Positions 2,611-12,466 of a stretch of 64,000 bases of DNA are shown piece by piece. The stretch's first letter is position 1; each line of letters starts with the position of its first letter. The stretch spans positions 1,302,001-1,366,000 of the forward strand of contig NC_052475.1 in assembly GCF_009730915.1 (NCBI RefSeq), given 5' to 3'. The notes under the pieces were generated by a model. The model made no database searches, was not told where the DNA came from, and worked only from the letters and a program-made list of their open reading frames with translations. This stretch comes from Dioscorea cayenensis subsp. rotundata. Taxonomy: Eukaryota > Streptophyta > Magnoliopsida > Dioscoreales > Dioscoreaceae. A program made the translations under genes and the position numbers.

Positions 2611-2752
2611 CATCCACGAATTTTATTTATTTATTTATTTATTTTGAAGTTTTAAGGTCAAGGTGAATAGCGCACCTTTTTTATCAGATAAAAATAAATA
2701 AAAAAGAAAATCAATTTTTTTTTAGTTAAAATAGGGTGTATTTTCATTAGCA

Positions 2753-2761
2753 TTTTTTTAT
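2753..2761. repeat. left 9-bp target-site duplication of the MULE
   Basis: Reads TTTTTTTAT and is repeated exactly at 11877-11885, directly outside the right terminal inverted repeat. Nine bases is the usual Mutator length. The site is low in complexity, so a chance match is possible, but it abuts both TIR ends exactly. Confidence 0.75.
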
Positions 2762-2770
2762 GTGGAAATT

Positions 2771-2841
2771 GCCAAAAACACCCTCTAAGTTTGCATTATT
2801 GCCAAAAACACCCCGTTAGTTTTGCACTCTCCAAAAACCCC
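2771..2841 (+). repeat. three spaced C-rich motifs in the left MULE end
   Basis: CCAAAAAC(A)CCC occurs three times, at about 2771-2783, 2801-2814 and 2829-2841, spaced 30 and 29 bp. The right end has one clear copy in inverted orientation. These could be transposase-binding sites, which in Mutator elements lie within the TIR; that is inference. Confidence 0.45.
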
Positions 2842-3201
2842 TTCCTTTTTATTTCCATGCTTTTCAACCCCCCAAAGCATGTAACGGATGTCAACAGAGT
2901 TATTTTAAAATTTTATGGACAAAAATGCCCTTGCATGGGGAGTCGTGACTGTAGCCATTTCAGCGGTATGAGAGGAAGTGGGGGGGTTTTCCGTAGGGTA
3001 ACCCCAAGAGAGGAATTCACTGGAGCCTTTTAGTTATTTTTTTCTCAACTAGAGTCTTCAGTTAAACCATTTCCGAAGCTGTCTCCGAAGTTGTCTCTAC
3101 CGGCGCAGCCTCTGTAATTGCAGCTTTTCCTTTTCCACCAGCATCTCGAAGGAGAAGTCCCCCGCGCAAGTAGTTGGCATTTCATCAGTGTGCAAACTAA
3201 G

Positions 3202-3657
3202 GTATTGAGTATGGTTTTATGTTAACTGTTCTGTAACAAAGAAATATTTTTCGGTTTTGTTTTGTGCTCCTGTTTTTGTTGGAAGATATTGAAGTCTGGA
3301 GGAAGATTTCTCTGCTGGGGTTTTGTTAGTCTGCAGGGCAATTTCTCGGCTAGGGTTTTGTGTTGTTTTGCGCTTTCGTCTGTATACACTATCGAAATAG
3401 TTTTTTCGATTGTTATGATTTGTGTAATATTTATAATGTACAATTCCCCTTTCATTTGATATCGTTTCAGTTTTAAAAATGAGGTTTACGTTTAACAAAT
3501 GAGATGTTATAGTTTAAATTTTGTTTTCTCTGTTTAAGTATTGTTGTATCTGATTAATAAACTAGTTCTCTGTTTAACAAATGATATCTCTGTTTAAGAA
3601 CTGAATGTTACCGTTTAAACTCTTATATTTCCGCTTAATGTGTTGTTGTTATCGCAG
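3202..3657 (+). repeat. intron 1 of the MULE Ulp1 gene, ending in a 20-bp periodic array
   Basis: A plausible donor is AAG|GTATTG at 3202 and the acceptor ATCGCAG ends at 3657, just before the protein start at 3668. Its last part is a degenerate repeat whose GTTTAA-like core recurs at 3512, 3532, 3552, 3572, 3592, 3613 and 3633. Confidence 0.6.
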
Positions 3658-4473
3658 GCTTTTGACTATGGCGTTCAACCTGGTTAATGGGCGATGCTAT
3701 TTGACACCGGTAGTGGAGACCTTAGCTGAATTGAAAGATAACATGACCCCTCGACACTGGGAGATCATCCGAAGGACACCGTTTGCAGCATTCACTGAAC
3801 TGGAAGCTATCTACCAAGAGAGGGCCCTTCTTGATTCTCTATTGCAAAGGTACGATGGCCGCACCAATAAATTCAGGATCGGGGAAAGCTTGCTGAGTTT
3901 CAGGCCTCAAGATGTGGCCCTCGTTCTTGGTCTGCGTTGTGATGGCGACGCAGTCATGTTTAAGAAGAACAAAATCCGCTCAGCGTTCGAAGGTAGGTAT
4001 TTATCAAACACCTATGAGAGACACAGAGACTCCATCAAGAGCACTCTTGTCCAACTTGTTCGACAAAGGGGGGAAAAAGAAAATTTTGTCAAACTCCTGA
4101 TGGTGTACCTCATGGGTACAGTCCTCTTCCCAAATACATCATGCTTGGTTCCGAACTGGATCGTTGATTATGTCGATGATCTACCCGCCATGGGACGATA
4201 TGCATGGGCGCAGGCGACGCACAAGTGGCTGATGGAGGACATTCCACAAGTAGCCGCTCGAGTGCAAGATAGATGCGCCGGGAAGAAGACCAACACAAGA
4301 TATATTAAGGGGTGCTCGGTCGCGCTTAACGTATGGTTTTACGAGCTGACCGGAACGGGAAAAGAAAGTCCGATTCGGCAAGATCCCAAGAATCTCGTGC
4401 TACGGTGAAAGTAGTTCTACGGGAAGCAAGCTGACCAGTAGAAACCAACTTGTCATCGCTCGAAGGAAAAGAG

Positions 4474-4703
4474 GTAATAAATCATGGACAATGTTTAACA
4501 TAAGTCTTTAATGTTTAAACATTTTATGTAGCATTTAAATTTATTATTTACAGTTTAATATTTATTAATAAAGGTTTAAATATTTTGTTCTCCGTTTAAA
4601 TACATTCTATAATGTTTAATATATAAAAACTATGTTTAAATTTAGTTGTTATAGTTTTCAATCGAATGATTTATTTGAAATTGTTTTGGTTTACATATGT
4701 TAG
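4474..4703 (+). repeat. intron 2 of the Ulp1 gene, a 20-bp periodic array
   Basis: Donor GAG|GTAATAAATC and acceptor ATATGTTAG bound a 230-bp intron. GTTTAA or a one-base variant starts at 4493, 4513, 4533, 4553, 4574, 4594, 4614, 4634 and 4654, so nearly the whole intron is the repeat, in gene-sense orientation. Confidence 0.8.
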
Positions 4704-5570
4704 TTTCTGAAAGTGGTTACGGCGAGTCTTTGAAGAAGAAATATTTGTTGGGGCCAACCGAGCGGATGGATGCTATTGCTCCCGGAACCACTTGCTCGAA
4801 GGCGGGGATGAGAGGCGGCCTCTATCGTGCGCGCTCAACCACTTGCTCCGGAGAAGCCCTCCCCACCCCGCCGATTGCAGCAACCCCCTACCACGACAAC
4901 GACAATTCCCCGATTGTGGCGACCCTCACGACCATGGCGGCCTCTCCGGCCAGTGGCGACCCCACCCAAGCGACATTAGGGCGAAGATGTCGACTGCAAC
5001 TCTTATGCGAGCGTGCGGATATTGATGATCGAGTTTCCTCGGCTTGTCGCTCGTGTTGAGGCTCCGGAAGGGACGTTCACGATCGATCGCTGCCGTCCCT
5101 TCAAACAACTTAAGCACCCGGGACGAACGAGGCGCCGGAATTTGACGACGACGACATCATCGGGGTGGTCATTCCAAGACGGCCACATTCGAAGAGACTT
5201 GCGAAAAAGAGAACAATAGTATCTCTGTCTCCACCGCCGGCTGACGATGAAACAATAGCAAAACCATCGGCGGCTGATGCTGTTACTGAGTCTGTCGCCG
5301 TTGATGACATGGCCATGACGGTGGAGGACATCGTAGATGATGTGGCCGTTGCCGCGGTTGAGAAGATCGTTAACTCTCTTGTTAACGAAATCGCCGACCC
5401 GGTGGAACCGGCTGCCGAGATTGCAGCATCAAAGATGGACACAATCCACGAAGAACATGAACAAGCTAAGGGTTTGTCTCCGATGATGCTTTGCTGCGTG
5501 CCACGGTGAGAAGATCGTTGAATCATTGCGTGGCCGTGGCCGCGACCGATCGTATGCAGCGTCGAGCGGG

Positions 5571-5735
5571 GACACAATCCCACAACAACAAGAACCATGT
5601 AAGGATGTGTTCGCGGTTGATCATCGTCGCCGTCGTCCCCGCATCGAGCCGGACACAATCCCACAACAAGAACAACCACGTAAGGATGTGTTCGCGGTTG
5701 ATGCTGCCGTCGCCGTCCCCCGCGATCGAAGGAAG
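5571..5735 (+). repeat. in-frame 81-bp (27-residue) tandem repeat in the Ulp1 linker
   Basis: GACACAATCC starts at 5571 and again at 5652, 81 bp apart. Both units encode DTIPQQ followed by a KDVFAVD block. A weaker third copy of the first part lies at 5438. Keeping a multiple of three suggests the repeat arose while the frame was under selection. Confidence 0.7.
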
Positions 5736-5950
5736 ATACACGGTGGTCTTTGAACACCGTCAAGGCTCAACGATAGTGCCCCATGAAGACCCGACCGAGC
5801 AACGCGAGAAATGATCAAGTCCAATCAACAATGGGACGCAACGGCTCGGCAAGTCTTCGTTCCGAAGAAGAAAAAATGGGTTGGTCAATCTCGTCTTAAC
5901 AAATACGAGCAGGAGTTGATGAGGATCTTCCTTAACTGCCGTATGGACAG

Positions 5951-6150
5951 GTAAGTTTAAAGTTTTCATAATAGTGTTTAAATTTGGTTTCTAGTGTTTA
6001 ACTGTCTGTTTATAGTGTTTAAATGTGTATATATTATCGTTTAAGTTTTCTACTTAATGTTTAATTATTTATAATATCATTTGAACGTTGATAATATCAT
6101 TTAACTATTTAGAATATGGTCTAATTATATCTGTTATCGTTTAATCTCAG
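5951..6150 (+). repeat. intron 3 of the Ulp1 gene, a 20-bp periodic array (exactly 200 bp)
   Basis: Donor ACAG|GTAAGT and acceptor TCTCAG. GTTTAA-like cores start at 5955, 5976, 5996, 6017, 6039, 6059, 6079, 6099, 6119 and 6139, giving steps of 20-22. The array fills the intron from donor to acceptor. Confidence 0.82.
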
Positions 6151-6893
6151 CACTGTCGTGTGGAAGAATGACGCCGTCAGCACCACACGGTCGAATTTAT
6201 ACACTCTGCTTTAGGGGAAGGAGATGGTCACAGATGATGTGATGGACGCTTTTGTATGCATAATATAAAAGTCGCTGAGCAAAGTGCCATATCCCTACAA
6301 GAAGCGCGCCTCCATCACAAGACCGTTGGCGCTGTTTATGTCAAAGCAGGACGACGCACATGATACAACTATGGCTATGATCGGAGATGCTGTGCGCAGC
6401 TTGCATGAAGTTCAAATTGTCATTCTCCCGATAATAATGAATGGACACTTCCATGTCGTCGTCCTTAACAATGACAAACAAAAATACATGCATTATTCTT
6501 CATGCGCGGGGTACGAAAAAGACGCGTCGGACATGGTAAGTTCCTTAATTATGACTGATTGATAGTGTTTGTTATTTAATTCGGTATTTTAATCTCAATT
6601 TGGATATCTCGACAGTGGAATCATTCGACACGGCTGTCGATATGGAGCTCGGCGAGTCAGCGACCGCAAAGTACCCACTCCTTTACGACATGGAAACCCC
6701 ACGGCAAAAACAAGGAAGCGTCGATTGTGCCGTCTATGTCATGCGGTTTATCGAGCAATTACTTTGGGGTGAGAAGCTACGACTACCGCAGACAAACGTT
6801 CCTTACCTGAGATTAAAGTATGTTACCCGCATACTTAAGGAGGGGAGGGCAGCCGGCGTCCATGAGAAGGGGGGGTCGTCCGAAGTGGGTTAA

Positions 6894-7384
6894 ATTTTGT
6901 TTTCGCAGAACATGACTTGTTTATGTCAACGTCAATTTTGTTTTCGAATGTAAACCAGGAAAAATTCAATTCATTGTTTTCATTTTTTCGAAGAACATGA
7001 CTTGTATATGTCAATGTAAATTTTGTTTGTTTTCAATTGTAAAGCAGGTTAAATTCCATTCAGTTTCATTTCATTGTTTAATTTACAGTGTGATTGTTTA
7101 CATTTCAGTTTAATTATTTAACATTACCATCTATCATTTAAATATCAGTTTAAAACTTTTAAAATTACAAGTTCTCCGTTTAACATAACACTGTCTCTGT
7201 TTAAATAACTGATAATACTGTAAAGAATAAAAGTTAATATATGAAAAAAATTGGCAGATCAATTCGATTGTTTCTCTTTAGAAGTCGACTTTATTTACAA
7301 TGCCTAGTCGGCGACAGCTTTCATTACAAGATCTACGATTGTGACCGGATCCATGGCATCGTGCCGCAATGTAACTCATGGACA
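6894..7384. other. convergence zone between the two MULE genes
   Basis: Holds the 3' ends of the Ulp1 gene (+) and the transposase gene (-). A less regular GTTTAA array lies at about 7075-7215 in plus orientation. The transposase 3' segment (7297-7400) recurs at 11337-11485. Confidence 0.6.
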
Positions 7385-7847
7385 TCAAACTCTCGCGACT
7401 CGATCCTCTTTTCGCTCTAGGACGCCCAGTCGTCTTCTCGTCACAGGCGGTCGCAAACGAAGCTCACGATTTCCGTTTGAAGGCCTGTCATCGTCGAGTA
7501 TGGGAAATATAGCTTCCTTATACGCCAGTTTATAATTGTCGACGGTGAAGTAGCCACTAATAAATCGATGAACGTTGGTGTCTGTCTGCATGATTGCAGC
7601 GCAAGCATGTTTACAAGGGATACCATAAACTTGCCACCTTCGACATGAACAAGTTCTGATGGCAAGATCTACAGAGTTGCTGCACTGGTCGATCACTTCG
7701 TAACGATCATCGACACAACGACCAACACGAAGATTTCGGCTATCCTCAACAATTATCTCTACCTTCGAATGTATGCCTGGGCATAAGTAGGTCTCCCATT
7801 TGTTCGCTTGCTCACGCCGGTTACATAACATGCGCATCAACTTGAAC

Positions 7848-8027
7848 CTGACAAATAACGTTAAACAAAGATAGTAATGGTTAAATAATTCGTAAACATT
7901 TTAAACATTATTGTAAAAGGTTAAATGATAAGATCAATATCTAATGTCGGAGAAGTATAATTAAACAAAGATGGCAAATTTTTAAAGGGTAACACTAAAT
8001 GTTAAGTGTAAATCAAAATTCGCAGAC
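7848..8027 (-). repeat. transposase intron, a 20-bp periodic array (exactly 180 bp)
   Basis: Minus-strand donor AAG|GTCTGC and acceptor TTTGTCAG. On the plus strand TTAAAC-like cores start at 7861, 7881, 7901, 7921, 7941, 7961, 7982 and 8002. The core reads GTTTAA in the sense direction of the transposase, as it does in the Ulp1 gene. Confidence 0.82.
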
Positions 8028-9313
8028 CTTATGGAGTCGACCATTTTCGTCACCGGTAAATGACGAGCTTCTTTGATCCAAGCATTGAACGACTCCGCGA
8101 CATTTGAATACATCTCACCCCAACGATCACCTCTGAACAGATAATTCGACCAATGTGCCATATCCGATTTATTAATCAACCAGTGATGAGCTTCGGGTGA
8201 TGTGGCCTGCAGTTCATTCATGGTATCATCGAATTCTTTAGCCGTGGATGCCCACGCAATGCGGAAGCATATCGACCCGAGACTCTCCCTCAATGCCTTC
8301 CCAAGTCCGACATTGGCTTTCATAAAATTGGCCTCCAAATGTCGAAGACGAGTATGCATGTGGCGAAGAAGGGAAGACTCTCGCAATTGCGCTTTATAAG
8401 GCCCTTCGACTGTTCGACACGAAGGTAATTATCTCATGATAATCTCCTTCCTCGTATAAAAGCATCGCCTAACTTAGATATGAACCAAGTCCAATTGGCA
8501 TCGGGTCTCGTTGTCGACTATACCGAAGGCGACGTGGAAAAAAACCATTGTTTCCATCTTTCCCCTGGCACCCAGATGAGTGTACTCCCGATATTTTCCA
8601 AGGAGGTGGGTACCATCGAGAAACAAAGCAGCTGCCCCGCAAGCCCTCTTGAATCCCACAATACACGCTACCGAAAGAAAAGAATGCACGCTTTAAAACG
8701 ATCACCGCCTCTTTCCACGATCGCAACGCTGCCGGGATTTGTCTCGACCCACTTTATCCACATACCAAAGCAAAGCGATCGTAGTTGGAGATGTCACCGC
8801 TGCCGAGGACCACCCGGGCATGCTCTTTTTCCCAACCAAGCTCGCTTGTATGGTATGTGGACACCATGTTCCCGCAACATGTCCTTCCCGAATGTCGATG
8901 GCCTTGCATAAGGGCCGGTCCTCGAGCTTCGAATCACTCGTGCGCTTACCCATTTTTTGGACGCTTTCGGATGTGACGCCGAACCTATGCCACCACCGCA
9001 AGTGTGTGACGGGTTGATTGTCTTGATTCTGAAATTATTTTTATTATACTCTTTTGAAGCATGAAGGCGCCAACGACAACCATCGACAGCGCATTCCACA
9101 GTCACCCGATGTTTTTCGTTCTTTATGAATTTGAAGTCAAAATTCCGTTTGATTGCATGATTTTGAAGTACGTCCCTGAAATGTTCAACACCGTCAAAAC
9201 GTTGTCCAATATCCAACGACAGCACTTCAGAATGATCTGACGAGGAAGGAAGACATCCTACACCGTCAGGGTCACCATGTGATTGAACGGGAGCACTCGC
9301 AGAATCTGAATTC

Positions 9314-9523
9314 CTGCCAACACTTCAGAAAAATGAAAAGATCAATATGTTAAGCGGAGAATATAATATTTAAGTGATAATGCCAATATTTAAACGTTAA
9401 ATTAAATACTTAAACCGTTACCAATTAACGTAAACGAATAGTACAATATGTTACGCAGTAACTGACATATTTAAACAATAATGAACCCATACATCTGGAT
9501 CAAATAAAAGAGAAGGAACTTAC
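9314..9523 (-). repeat. transposase intron after the PB1 domain, a 20-bp periodic array (210 bp)
   Basis: Minus-strand donor GTT|GTAAGTTCC and acceptor TTGGCAG. Plus-strand cores (TTAAGC, TTAAGT, TTAAAC and similar) start at 9350, 9370, 9390, 9410, 9430, 9451 and 9471. Confidence 0.8.
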
Positions 9524-9988
9524 AACGAGTAAAACTCGTTTTCATTAGGATTCCGCAATGGCATATTGTCTGTCTCAACAACAAGATCAACTACACTGCA
9601 TTTTAAGATGGAGTGCACGTGATACATTCGCTGGAAGTCAACATCGTTTTCTATTGGACAAACCGTTTTATATCCATCTGGTGTGATAAACTTCACCCTG
9701 ACAAGGGAAACTTCGAGACCCCATCGCTCACATATCTCAGCTAACACCAACTCCCAAGAAGTCTGAGCCGTGAACATTAGCACTCTTCCCTCCTCGTTGA
9801 ATCTAGCAATACCGCAAAAATTCTCCATAATATATCGGCCGAAAACCAAATCGTACAAACCAAATGAAATGAAGAACAAAAAAGAAGATGAAGAAGAAGA
9901 AAAAGAAGATGTAAACAACAAACAGCAGTTAGATAGGCAAACAGAAAAGTGCACAGTTGTATGCATAGAGGATAGACTAGACGTGATG

Positions 9989-10045
9989 TGATTGGGCGGT
10001 ATTTTTCCCTCCATCCCAAGGGCAAAAAGGGAAATATATGTCAAT
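9989..10045 (-). promoter_or_regulatory. presumed transposase promoter/5' leader, duplicated at 11,688
   Basis: GATTGGGCGGTATTTTTCCC lies about 160-220 bp upstream of the transposase start. A close copy (GATTGGGCGCCATTTTTCCC) is at 11688-11742, next to the right TIR, where a MULE transposase promoter is expected. A promoter role is inferred from position only. Confidence 0.4.
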
Positions 10046-10059
10046 GTCGCGAGGAAGAC

Positions 10060-10600
10060 ATATTGTCATCGCTCGAATGAAAGTTCTCACCTCAACATGA
10101 GTCTCTGTTTAAACGTTTAAGTATCATTTTCTCCCTTTAACTTCATTTTTCTCTGTTTAAATTTCATTTTCTCAATGTAACATTTTCTTATTGTATTATA
10201 TCAACTTAATTACAATGTAATTTACCTAAAAAACAAATCTCTGAAAGAAATAGAATTTTCACTTAAGACAATAATACAATACAACATTCATTTTCTTATT
10301 CAATATCAACTTACTTAAAATACAAATCTCTGATAACATTCATTCCCTATAACTTTATTTTGCCCTGTTTAAATTTCATTTTCTCAGTTTAACATTTTCT
10401 TATGAAGTATCAACGTAATTACAATGAAATGTACTTAAAATACAAATCTCTGATAAAAAATACATTTAATACATTTTATTATTAAATATCGGCGTATTTA
10501 CAAATGACCTTCACTTAAAATACAAATCTCTGATAAAAATACAATGTAAGACAATACAAAAATTCTCTGTTTAAGCTTCAAACTTCCCGTTTAACGCAAG
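10060..10600 (+). repeat. duplicated Ulp1-gene fragment with intron array in the right arm
   Basis: Starts with TTGTCATCGCTCGAATGAAA, a near copy of the end of the first Ulp1 exon block at about 4450 (TGTCATCGCTCGAAGGAAA). A long, looser GTTTAA array in plus orientation (about 10105-10580) follows, matching the intron 2 that follows in the original. This marks it as a copy of the exon-intron 2 junction of the Ulp1 gene. Confidence 0.6.
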
Positions 10601-10905
10601 ACGTAACCATCACGGATAGTCATTGACACCTTTGAATAGGGTGTACACAACACTCGCTCCAGTCAGACCACATTTTTTTATAGATCAAGTTCTTTTTAAA
10701 GGATATGTGATGAACCTTCTTCTGGTAATCATCCGCAATCAACTTGTAAGTGAAACTTTCTTTTCTTGACCCAAGGCGAAACGCACTTCCGTCATTGCTT
10801 ACCCGTAGAGTAGAGCAAGAAGGCGCGCATTTCGACTTGGGCAAGAAAAAAATAGTTTTCTCCTACATGCTGTTTAGGGATGACAAGAGGAAAACAATCA
10901 TCACA
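10600..10905 (-). pseudogene. unidentified coding remnant, weakly B3-domain-like
   Basis: Minus-strand reading gives FPLVIPKQHVGENYFFL, then STLRVSNDGSAFRLGSR, and in another frame GLTGASVVYTLFKG. The order (IPK strand, short D/N-G turn, late hydrophobic G-V-Y strand) recalls a plant B3 DNA-binding domain, possibly from the MULE family or a captured host exon. The similarity is weak and the frame is broken. A second piece at 10942-11210 (+) encodes SSFTFILRNPNSLLPLRLPI and could be related. Confidence 0.25.
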
Positions 10906-11204
10906 CATCCTGTAAAAAGTCTATAATCTAAAAAATGTGGTTTGAATGGTGCGAATGTCGTGAACACCAGATGTTCGACTCGACAGGATGACCATCACAC
11001 AAGAAGAAGAGGAAGAGGAAGAGGAGTGGTTGCGCTAGTAGAGTATGTTCAACGAAATGGTTCTTCCTTCACATTTATACTGCGAAATCCAAACAGTCTG
11101 TTGCCGCTTCGGCTTCCGATTTTAATGTGCGACGGCAGTGGAAACGCTTGGGTAACCGAGCGTGCATTAATTACGCTTGGAGACCGCTGCCACCATCGCG
11201 TTAT

Positions 11205-11335
11205 ATACTTTAAGCGGATAAAAATACAATTTAAACGATAAAAGAAGAAATTTAAACATAAAAGACAATATTTAAACGATAACAGATATATTTAAATCTA
11301 AAGTTCAATATTTAAACAATAATGAGAAGTATATA
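11205..11335 (-). repeat. 20-bp periodic array in the right arm
   Basis: Plus-strand TTAAAC-type cores start at 11210, 11231, 11252, 11272, 11292 and 11312. The orientation equals that in the transposase introns, and the array directly abuts a copy of the transposase 3' end. Confidence 0.75.
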
Positions 11336-11336
11336 C

Positions 11337-11750
11337 ACAATGCCTACTCTAGATCAGATTCCGTCACGATCCGCGATCGTGACCGAAGCGTGTAATGTCT
11401 ACAACACAACTTGTGGGACCCGGAAGGTTGGCAATGGCTAAAACGCAACTCACCGTCCTCGGGACGCTCACGACTCGATCCTCTTAGTATCTAAAGAATA
11501 GCACAAAAAAACTCTCCATAATTTAATCGAAGAGCTAAAATCGAGTACACCAAATGAGAAGAAGAAAAAGAAGAACAAGAATAAGAACAAGAACAAGAAG
11601 AACAAGATATGAGCCTTCTAAACTTTGTTTGAGAAAAAGCAAGCATGAGGCATTGGAAAACTATGTATAAAGTTCGGACATGATATGATTGGGCGCCATT
11701 TTTCCCTCCTTTTGCAAGGGCAAAAAAGGAATTTCATATCATGGACCAAC
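11337..11750 (-). pseudogene. collapsed second copy of the MULE transposase gene
   Basis: 11337-11485 matches the transposase 3' region at 7297-7412 (shared ACAATGCCTA at the start and CGACTCGATCCTCTT at the end). It is followed at once by a copy of the 5' region: CTCTCCATAA at about 11511, equivalent to the transposase start at 9826, then the purine-rich leader and the promoter-like GATTGGGCG block. The gene body is missing, so the tail is joined to the head by an internal deletion. Confidence 0.6.
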
Positions 11751-11876
11751 TTCAACTTACCGGCGTGGGGTTAAAGGGAATGTAAAATATAACGGAGGGT
11801 TGTCCGGGGTGTGCAAAAGTTGGAGGGGGTTTTTGGGCAGTTTTGAAAATGACGAGGGGTGAACAGTAATTTTCTC

Positions 11877-11885
11877 TTTTTTTAT
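11877..11885. repeat. right 9-bp target-site duplication of the MULE
   Basis: TTTTTTTAT, identical to 2753-2761. Confidence 0.75.
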
Positions 11886-12466
11886 TATAAATTATCTATT
11901 TTATATGTGGAGTTTTTCATTTGTACCCAGATAATTATATCAGGCTCAGCTCTGTAGATTGCAATCAGATCATGTGTGTGGTTATTTATTAAATATTACT
12001 TTAATTAATTCTAATTTTTATTAATATTTTTTATCAAATTATATGCCTAGTGACCATATATATATTATGTTTTTTTTTCTAATAAAAAAATTATTTTTTA
12101 ATAACTTCTAATTTTTAATTTACACTTTTAATTTTTATTTAAGAGTAATAATTATTTATGGTTGTAATTGAAAAATCTTAAGTTCCAGAAGAGTAATCAA
12201 ACCACTTTAAATAATTCACCTCTGTAATTGCTTGCACTTTGCTTTTTAATTTTTTTAATTTTTTTAATGTATGTGTTTTTCATTTTTTTAATATTTTTAT
12301 TAGTTATCTATTTAGAAAATACAAATATTTTATAAATTATAACTAATAAAATATTTAAAAGGATCATATAAAAAATTAAAAATATAATCTACAAACAATG
12401 CATATACTATATATATTTATATATACACACACCTTTAAAAAAAGTGAGAGCAAGCGAGAGGGATAG
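11886..12466. other. AT-rich spacer and PEN-2 upstream region
   Basis: Very AT-rich with no gene seen. A TATA-rich run at about 12402-12425 lies 40-65 bp before the PEN-2 start and is a likely core promoter. Confidence 0.45.

Follow-up and report, generated by a model that had tools for sequence, protein, structure and literature searches.

A Mutator-like element (MULE) occupies positions 2762-11876 (9,115 bp) of the 64,000-nucleotide stretch of DNA analysed here (C5:1302001-1366000, the window), and its non-coding parts are filled with a short motif, GTTTAA and close variants, which recurs about every 20.5 bp and is read mostly in one direction. We propose that these arrays are probably protein-binding sites, most likely for the element's own DUF1985(-Ulp1) protein, and that their occupancy would block silencing. 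A preliminary description of this DNA had presented the repeat as the substance of peculiar introns in the element's two genes; the length and content of those introns are better read, we believe, as by-products of binding-site arrays. The arrays lie as follows (window coordinates):

3490..3618, plus strand: array 1, six GTTTAA at 20-40 bp steps, in the leader or first intron of gene 1, just 5' of the ATG
4493..4639, plus strand: array 2, seven GTTTAA, intron 2 of gene 1
5951..6150, plus strand: array 3, seven exact GTTTAA, intron 3 of gene 1 (200 bp; GT at 5951, AG at 6150)
7076..7204, plus strand: array 4, intergenic, 3' of gene 1, not an intron
7861..7966, minus strand: array A, transposase intron, three exact and several degenerate units
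9390..9476, minus strand: array B, transposase intron, three exact units
10107..10594, plus strand: array 5, upstream of the transposase gene and antisense to it
11231..11317, minus strand: array 6, right subterminal

Autocorrelation at a lag of 20 bp exceeded that of shuffled sequence (300 dinucleotide shuffles per block) in 8/8 non-coding blocks, with z between 2.9 and 7.4, and in 0/5 exon blocks, which confirms both the 20-bp periodicity and the absence of the repeat from exons. The weakest block, 7855-8025, still gave p 0.007 at this lag. Lag 20 was outscored in two of the blocks by a multiple of the step (40 or 61), and in another, at 10090-10600, by lag 16 (z 5.3) and lag 40 (lag 20, z 3.1). 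The array blocks are 73-83% AT. Three of the eight periodic blocks are not intronic, namely 7070-7215 (intergenic), 10090-10600 (upstream of the transposase) and 11205-11335 (right end), so that the introns are indeed filled with the repeat, as first described, but are not its only location. Exact GTTTAA or TTAAAC occurs 47 times in 2700-12000 compared to 44 times in the remainder of the window, and between 12000 and 64000 there are no same-strand neighbours 17-24 bp apart.

The spacing was measured in two sets of copies. The first, chosen by protein similarity with the motif ignored, comprises the window element and L021-L028; the second, L001-L020, comprises 9.9-kb windows around the first listed places with a GTTTAA pair, all from the first ~2.9 Mb of one contig and taken regardless of gene content. 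One listed place, near C1:2,080,959, carries the same single pair as L010 and L014 and was left out, and two pairs of windows overlap (L002/L003 and L005/L006). In the protein-chosen copies neighbouring GTTTAA are most often 20 bp apart (108 cases), then 21 (48) and 22 (34), with lesser peaks at 40-43, and the best period is 20.2-20.7 bp with a coherence of 0.81 over 761 pairs. The motif-chosen loci show peaks at 20-21, 40-42, 61, 82 and 102 bp and single pairs at 10 and 31, their 20-bp count being inflated because these loci were seeded by a 20-bp pair. A step of exactly 20, as stated in the preliminary description, is thus the commonest value within a mix of 20, 21 and 22 that averages about 20.5, and several of the GTTTAA positions given there (7881, 7921, 7941, 6079 and 6119) turn out to be degenerate. 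Nor do intron lengths follow whole multiples of 20 as a rule: intron 3 of gene 1 measures exactly 200 bp in the window, but the corresponding block (201 bp in the window) is 201-204 bp in five of seven relatives and 236 and 168 bp in the other two.

The same spacing is found on a genomic scale. Across 584 Mb in 2,249 contigs, with both strands summed and the reversed pattern as control, same-strand GTTTAA pairs number 18,114 at step 20 (control 1,010) and 9,747 at step 21 (control 1,050), compared to 340 at step 16 (control 633). Inverted pairs at the same gap show no such excess (323 unique, control 355). GTTTGA pairs are not in excess (383, control 493), and GCTTAA pairs exceed their control a hundredfold (1,949 versus 19). 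We then counted variants with a neighbour in phase (20-22 bp) or off phase (29-31 bp) in L001-L030 and the window element; L031 enters the off-phase tally only, and some loci overlap. In-phase and off-phase counts were 546/8 for GTTTAA, 225/19 for ATTTAA, 109/26 for TTTTAA, 74/3 for GCTTAA, 72/3 for GTTAAA, 59/6 for CTTTAA, 16/1 for GTATAA and 8/0 for GTCTAA. Hardly or not raised were GGTTAA (16/11), GTTTAC (13/6), GTTTAT (10/12), GATTAA (9/7), GTTCAA (3/3) and GTTTGA (1/9). Because nearly all raised variants have TTAA after T or C, the core can be written roughly as [G/A/C][T/C]TTAA, a tolerance profile that these counts suggest.

Within genes the arrays mostly follow the direction of transcription. 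Gene 1 carries 154 sense and 5 antisense sites, with a sense majority in 16/16 copies that have sites, and the transposase gene carries 80 sense and 35 antisense sites, with a sense majority in 13/14 copies (72 overlapping palindromic sites, and two gene-1 copies free of sites, were dropped beforehand). Of the antisense sites in the transposase gene, 23 of 35 come from L005 and L025, whose spans reach beyond one gene. Most arrays read inward from both ends because the two genes converge. This does not hold for the block upstream of the transposase, which has plus-strand runs in the window, L021, L023, L025 and L019, two plus-strand sites in L004, and the opposite orientation in L015. The earlier statement that the repeat always reads in the sense direction is therefore well borne out in gene 1, less strongly in the transposase gene, and fails outside genes.

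The coding parts with which these arrays alternate are:

3668..4408, plus strand: gene 1 exon, plant mobile domain (PMD)/DUF1985, VANC-type; PMD 47.5 bits (cut-off 34.9)
4700..5950, plus strand: gene 1 linker, fast-evolving, with internal coding repeats (5571-5740); ratio of nonsynonymous to synonymous change (dN/dS) 0.76 for the part 5114-5509
6153..6893, plus strand: Ulp1 (Peptidase_C48) exons with a ~78-bp array-free intron between them; weak profile match
7385..7849, minus strand: transposase exon, SWIM zinc finger, 40.7 bits
8794..9324, minus strand: transposase exon, MuDR DNA-binding domain, 78.8 bits (cut-off 25)
9520..9825, minus strand: transposase exon, PB1-like N-terminal part, 20.1 bits, below the cut-off of 23.6

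In profile scans the window copy matches DUF1985 at 33.1 bits, just below the cut-off of 35.1, and L021, L022 and L024 reach 36.5-37.0 bits, so that all three close relatives scanned pass for both PMD and DUF1985; in these four copies PMD scores higher than DUF1985. Neither domain was matched in a diverged fragment of L012. The Ulp1 match scores 21.0 bits at 6555-6893 (cut-off 20.7) and 13.8 bits, below the cut-off, at 6269-6562, and the scanned L021 frame gave no Ulp1 match. The domain match is weak, and splice sites suggest that Ulp1 is fused behind DUF1985 in gene 1. The donor of intron 2 reads GTAATAAATC in 8/8 aligned rows and its acceptor TATGTTAG in 7/8. DUF287, the second VANC domain, found no match among the scanned exon pieces, which is not a full test. 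Of 5,859 first-look candidates in a genome search with the DUF1985 exon, 150 gave scored matches, and a comparison of the same exon with solved structures gave no credible relative (best E 0.29).

Between copies, mean dN/dS is 0.20 in the DUF1985 exon, the lowest of nine regions compared, followed by 0.26 in PB1, 0.35-0.39 in C48 and 0.38-0.50 in other transposase parts; several transposase frames carry at least one stop, a sign that the borders drawn are approximate or that the copies have decayed. The best-kept part is thus the DUF1985 domain, as would be expected if it were the functional partner of the arrays. In the linker, copies differ in or near the direct repeats at 5571-5740 by indels such as 39 and 78 bp.

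The motif core is itself conserved. When one copy served to define the sites and the remaining copies to measure divergence (five references tried of eight aligned copies), TTTAA diverged by 0.032-0.060 in full-length copies compared to 0.145-0.166 at random phase, a roughly threefold slower change. The minimum fell exactly at shift 0, and with every one of the five references p reached the lowest value that 5,000 draws allow. Thymines and adenines of the core change at roughly one half to one fifth the rate of those in the spacers. When the reference copy was included, the core stood at 0.074 versus 0.178 over all blocks; the block at 7071-7215 showed no contrast (0.231 versus 0.252). The observation that cores are kept while spacers drift thus gains statistical support. 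At the same time the arrays turn over in whole units: 8/15 distinct indels of at least 8 bp in the aligned non-coding blocks comprise 1-3 units (p 0.003 versus a uniform expectation), a count made after removing the cut-off end of L006 and all missing stretches and after merging shared events manually. Selection on the core and unit-wise gain and loss, initially offered as alternatives, both act. A concerted change of motif is also seen, in L011 at 3141-5545, where 10/24 units read GCTTAA at places where the aligned L007 units read GTTTAA, and the remaining units keep GTTTAA or differ otherwise.

Arrays are also retained in copies without the genes. They are present in 18/20 motif-chosen windows; the other two, L010 and L014, hold single pairs of another repeat and were rejected as arrays. 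Homologues of the element's proteins are present in 12 of the 18 array windows, only one or both family ends in five (L001, L007, L011, L016 and L020), and neither in one, L013. L007 (1,731 bp) holds 27 motifs and L020 (2,423 bp) 34, both with the same ends as the full element and with no matches to its proteins, and L007 is flanked by a perfect 9-bp duplication. In 13 delimited elements motif density is 5.0-15.6 per kb compared to 0-2.9 per kb in the flanks. L013 has same-strand GTTTAA runs at 4600-5922 and is perhaps a diverged or truncated member.

The borders of the window element, whose termini are ~100-bp degenerate inverted repeats of one another, are:

2753..2761, strand not applicable: target-site duplication, 9 bp, left copy, 9/9 match to 11877-11885
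2762..2861, plus strand: left terminal region (first 100 bp), found at borders of other copies
11777..11876, minus strand: right terminal region, found at borders of other copies
11877..11885, strand not applicable: target-site duplication, 9 bp, right copy, 9/9 match to the left copy

Among the 13 elements, eight have identical target duplications of at least 9 bp, six of them at the exact ends; L020 and L026 have identical 10-bp duplications with shifted ends. L021, L023 and L028 match at 8/9 positions, none was found for L019 (partly N), and that of L025 is unreadable.

The nearest published parallel lies in the VANC proteins, a literature that the preliminary description overlooked when it stated that nothing similar was known (e.g., PMC5735166). 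According to the parts of these papers available to us, VANC21 binds dense arrays of a motif in one orientation in the introns, intergenic and terminal non-coding DNA of VANDAL elements, and its target arrays gain and lose units in concert (Hosaka et al. 2017, PMC5735166). The VANC21/VANDAL21 and VANC6/VANDAL6 systems (PMC5735166; Sasaki et al. 2023, PMC10398659) share with the window element a MULE with a DUF1985 second gene, a dense one-orientation motif in introns, intergenic and terminal parts and not in exons, gain and loss of units, concerted motif variants, and other elements as targets (AT9TSD1 in the case of VANC6). Our element has the MuDR transposase, the 9-bp duplication, the DUF1985 second gene and the dense one-orientation non-coding motif of VANC/VANDAL-type elements (KIU, below, included), and the switch in L011, the GCTTAA pairs and the unit indels correspond to their concerted turnover; the one-base change in L011 resembles the reported C-/T-type motif change of VANDAL21, and the variable, repeat-bearing linker recalls variable, tandemly repeated regions of VANC proteins (PMC5735166). 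Since the VANC precedent agrees in most points, we read the supposed MULE introns as candidate arrays of DUF1985-Ulp1 binding sites. There are also differences. VANC motifs read YAGTATTAY or AGTTGT(C/A)C, whereas the motif here is roughly [G/A/C][T/C]TTAA; a ~20.5-bp step is unmentioned for VANC21 and VANC6 in the portions of PMC5735166 and PMC10398659 that we cover; and, unlike those systems, the element here has ~100-bp degenerate terminal inverted repeats and an Ulp1 domain, terminal inverted repeats being known from some VANDAL members (PMC6446971). The motif, the phase and the scale are, in the published VANC accounts as far as available to us, not described.

Ulp1-bearing VANC elements do exist. 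In Arabidopsis such elements (KIU/Kaonashi) counter silencing of each other (2026 review, PMC13317346). They share with our element a DUF1985-type gene fused to Ulp1 and arrays in non-coding regions, and here too Ulp1 (C48) lies behind DUF1985, as a weak match. The primary study of KIU is reportedly that of Sasaki et al. 2022 in the EMBO Journal, known to us through a review. In the part of the review available to us, KIU anti-silencing is described for Arabidopsis and conservation of Ulp1 is stressed for eudicots, whereas the host here may be a monocot, and KIU is described as lacking terminal inverted repeats, in contrast to the element here (PMC13317346). MULEs with a PMD gene, reported from monocots and others, resemble ours in that this gene is often antisense to the transposase (in several groups) and in their 9-bp duplications, although the available part of that account describes no motif arrays (PMC6446971). 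A 2021 paper on tandem repeats in rice discusses 20- and 30-nucleotide repeats as possible protein sites and, in what we could see of it, does not show a GTTTAA motif in a MULE (PMC8064497). Our literature search, which covered few subscription papers and did not use the 20-bp step as a query term, found no such arrays described outside VANC papers.

Two further PMD genes lack the motif. L029, a second MULE, carries a strong PMD gene (200 bits) and no GTTTAA pairs, and L030 has a PMD gene, no GTTTAA pairs and no apparent MULE gene among the frames listed for it. L029 has a 41-bp-unit array at 130-1014, upstream of its transposase frame (from 1733), and 273-bp-unit repeats at 4501-5466, upstream of its PMD frame. 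These arrays are possibly a second, separate recognition code, and the idea that the array motif varies together with the PMD type, drawn from one family only, is a lead.

If the arrays protect the element from silencing, a trace might be expected in its base composition. The ratio of observed to expected CpG is 0.90-1.28 in 13/13 elements compared to 0.34-0.69 in the six flanks measured. Of the other sequences measured, the window outside the element gives 0.55, a gypsy fragment 0.32, a copia fragment 0.69, L029 0.86 and L030 0.70. CpG transitions among copies show no excess in array blocks (0.133 versus 0.127). The rate of change at the core G by preceding base (C 0.12, T 0.08, A 0.157, G 0/36) is uninformative on CpG. 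The pattern is consistent with the footprint expected of CG protection confined to the arrays, although age, codon usage and the scarcity of CWG inside elements keep it from amounting to proof.

We can now sketch how such a system might work. Sites read in one direction every ~20.5 bp, or two helix turns, across all non-coding parts of a VANC-type MULE would be docked in trans by the DUF1985/plant-mobile-domain protein with its fused Ulp1-like protease, side by side and on one face of the DNA, an arrangement that the two-turn phase and single orientation suggest. The docked protein would keep host DNA methylation off the element and off relatives without genes; arrays would gain and lose whole units, and selection would hold the core because only bound copies remain active. 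A more far-reaching version is tentative and, in our judgement, rather doubtful: that a DUF1985-Ulp1 polymer on one DNA face, in the ~20.5-bp register of directional [G/A/C][T/C]TTAA sites, coats all non-coding DNA and removes SUMO-dependent silencing, outside eudicots (probably in a yam) and with one code for autonomous and gene-less copies. Such a system would bear on how VANC proteins read long targets specifically and on whether this kind of anti-silencing extends beyond eudicots. The recognition rule itself is directly testable, given a six-base code spaced at two turns, examples in the tens of thousands across the genome and the variants GTTTAA, ATTTAA and GCTTAA; the spacing and variants suggest cooperative side-by-side binding.

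Several other readings have to be set against binding by the DUF1985 protein. That the MuDR-type transposase, or its PB1 or SWIM parts, binds the arrays for transposition or self-regulation would suit the gene-less elements, which retain both arrays and ends, and the subterminal array at 11231-11317. We consider this unlikely, since arrays also fill internal introns and the space between the genes rather than lying only near the ends, and gene 1 introns have more sites than transposase introns. Slightly less likely still is a host factor, or an AT-rich phase that excludes nucleosomes, using the 20.5-bp period; the period is indeed near two helix turns and the blocks are rich in AT, however the 18,114 direct versus 323 inverted pairs and the lack of GTTTGA enrichment point to a directional reader of sequence, and the second PMD-bearing MULE, L029, has a different array.

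Two readings seem highly improbable to us, and equally so. The sense bias within both genes (154/5 and 80/35) is what a repeated branch-point or intron-identity signal, TTTAA(C/A), would produce, and a splicing signal was among the three meanings initially proposed; yet arrays are also found in non-intronic blocks, one of them upstream of the transposase in antisense direction, and in gene-less elements of 1.7-2.4 kb, and the ~78-bp C48 intron has none. Neutral minisatellites, products of slippage without function, could account for the whole-unit indels (8/15) and for the short copies L007, L020 and L011, in which the core is not clearly better kept. Such products would not readily explain the roughly threefold slower change of the core in exact register in full-length copies, the great excess at steps 20 and 21 and not at 16, or the array-free exons. 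Growth of introns by 20-bp units, considered as the main story, is likewise insufficient, because the core is conserved and arrays also lie outside introns. Of the three meanings initially proposed, protein-binding iterons appear to fit best.

A number of observations weigh against the DUF1985 protein as binder and protector. AlphaFold gave no usable model of the DUF1985 exon (pLDDT 36), and binding could instead be the work of the transposase or a host factor. At the first position of the core G is only weakly kept (0.16-0.20 compared to 0.27-0.30 in spacers), and GTTTAA is among the best-kept hexamers and never the first; of the few hexamers that equal or better it, many overlap the core and some do not. 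In L007, L020 and L011 the core was not better kept for two of three references (0.160 versus 0.148; 0.167 versus 0.136), and the third showed a slight contrast (0.044 in the core versus 0.076 in spacers); the lack of a clear contrast in these short copies is partly due to the switch of L011 to GCTTAA. The motif is common to families whose DUF1985 is only 36-40% identical (L002, L008 and L019), unlike what the parts of the papers seen indicate for VANC21 and VANC6, and this implies that it turns over more slowly than VANC targets, for which rapid change is reported. As for methylation, CpG transitions are raised in exons (0.100 versus 0.066), youth or codon use may explain part of the CpG retention, and CWG (178) is rarer than GWC (248) in the window element, compared to 1,252 versus 828 in the rest of the window.

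Two minor features were seen along the way. In the right non-coding part of the window element a 39-bp inverted repeat (85%) has its arms at 10640-10678 and 10930-10968, ~250 bp apart, and stretches from 10640 onward have inverted matches in the relatives L021 and L023. Elsewhere in the genome, C14:1.23-1.57 Mb and C801 hold a tandem cluster of alpha-carbonic-anhydrase-like exons that may point to a Dioscorea (yam) host: one of them matched dioscorin at 74 bits in a comparison with solved structures, the next chain scoring 33.6.

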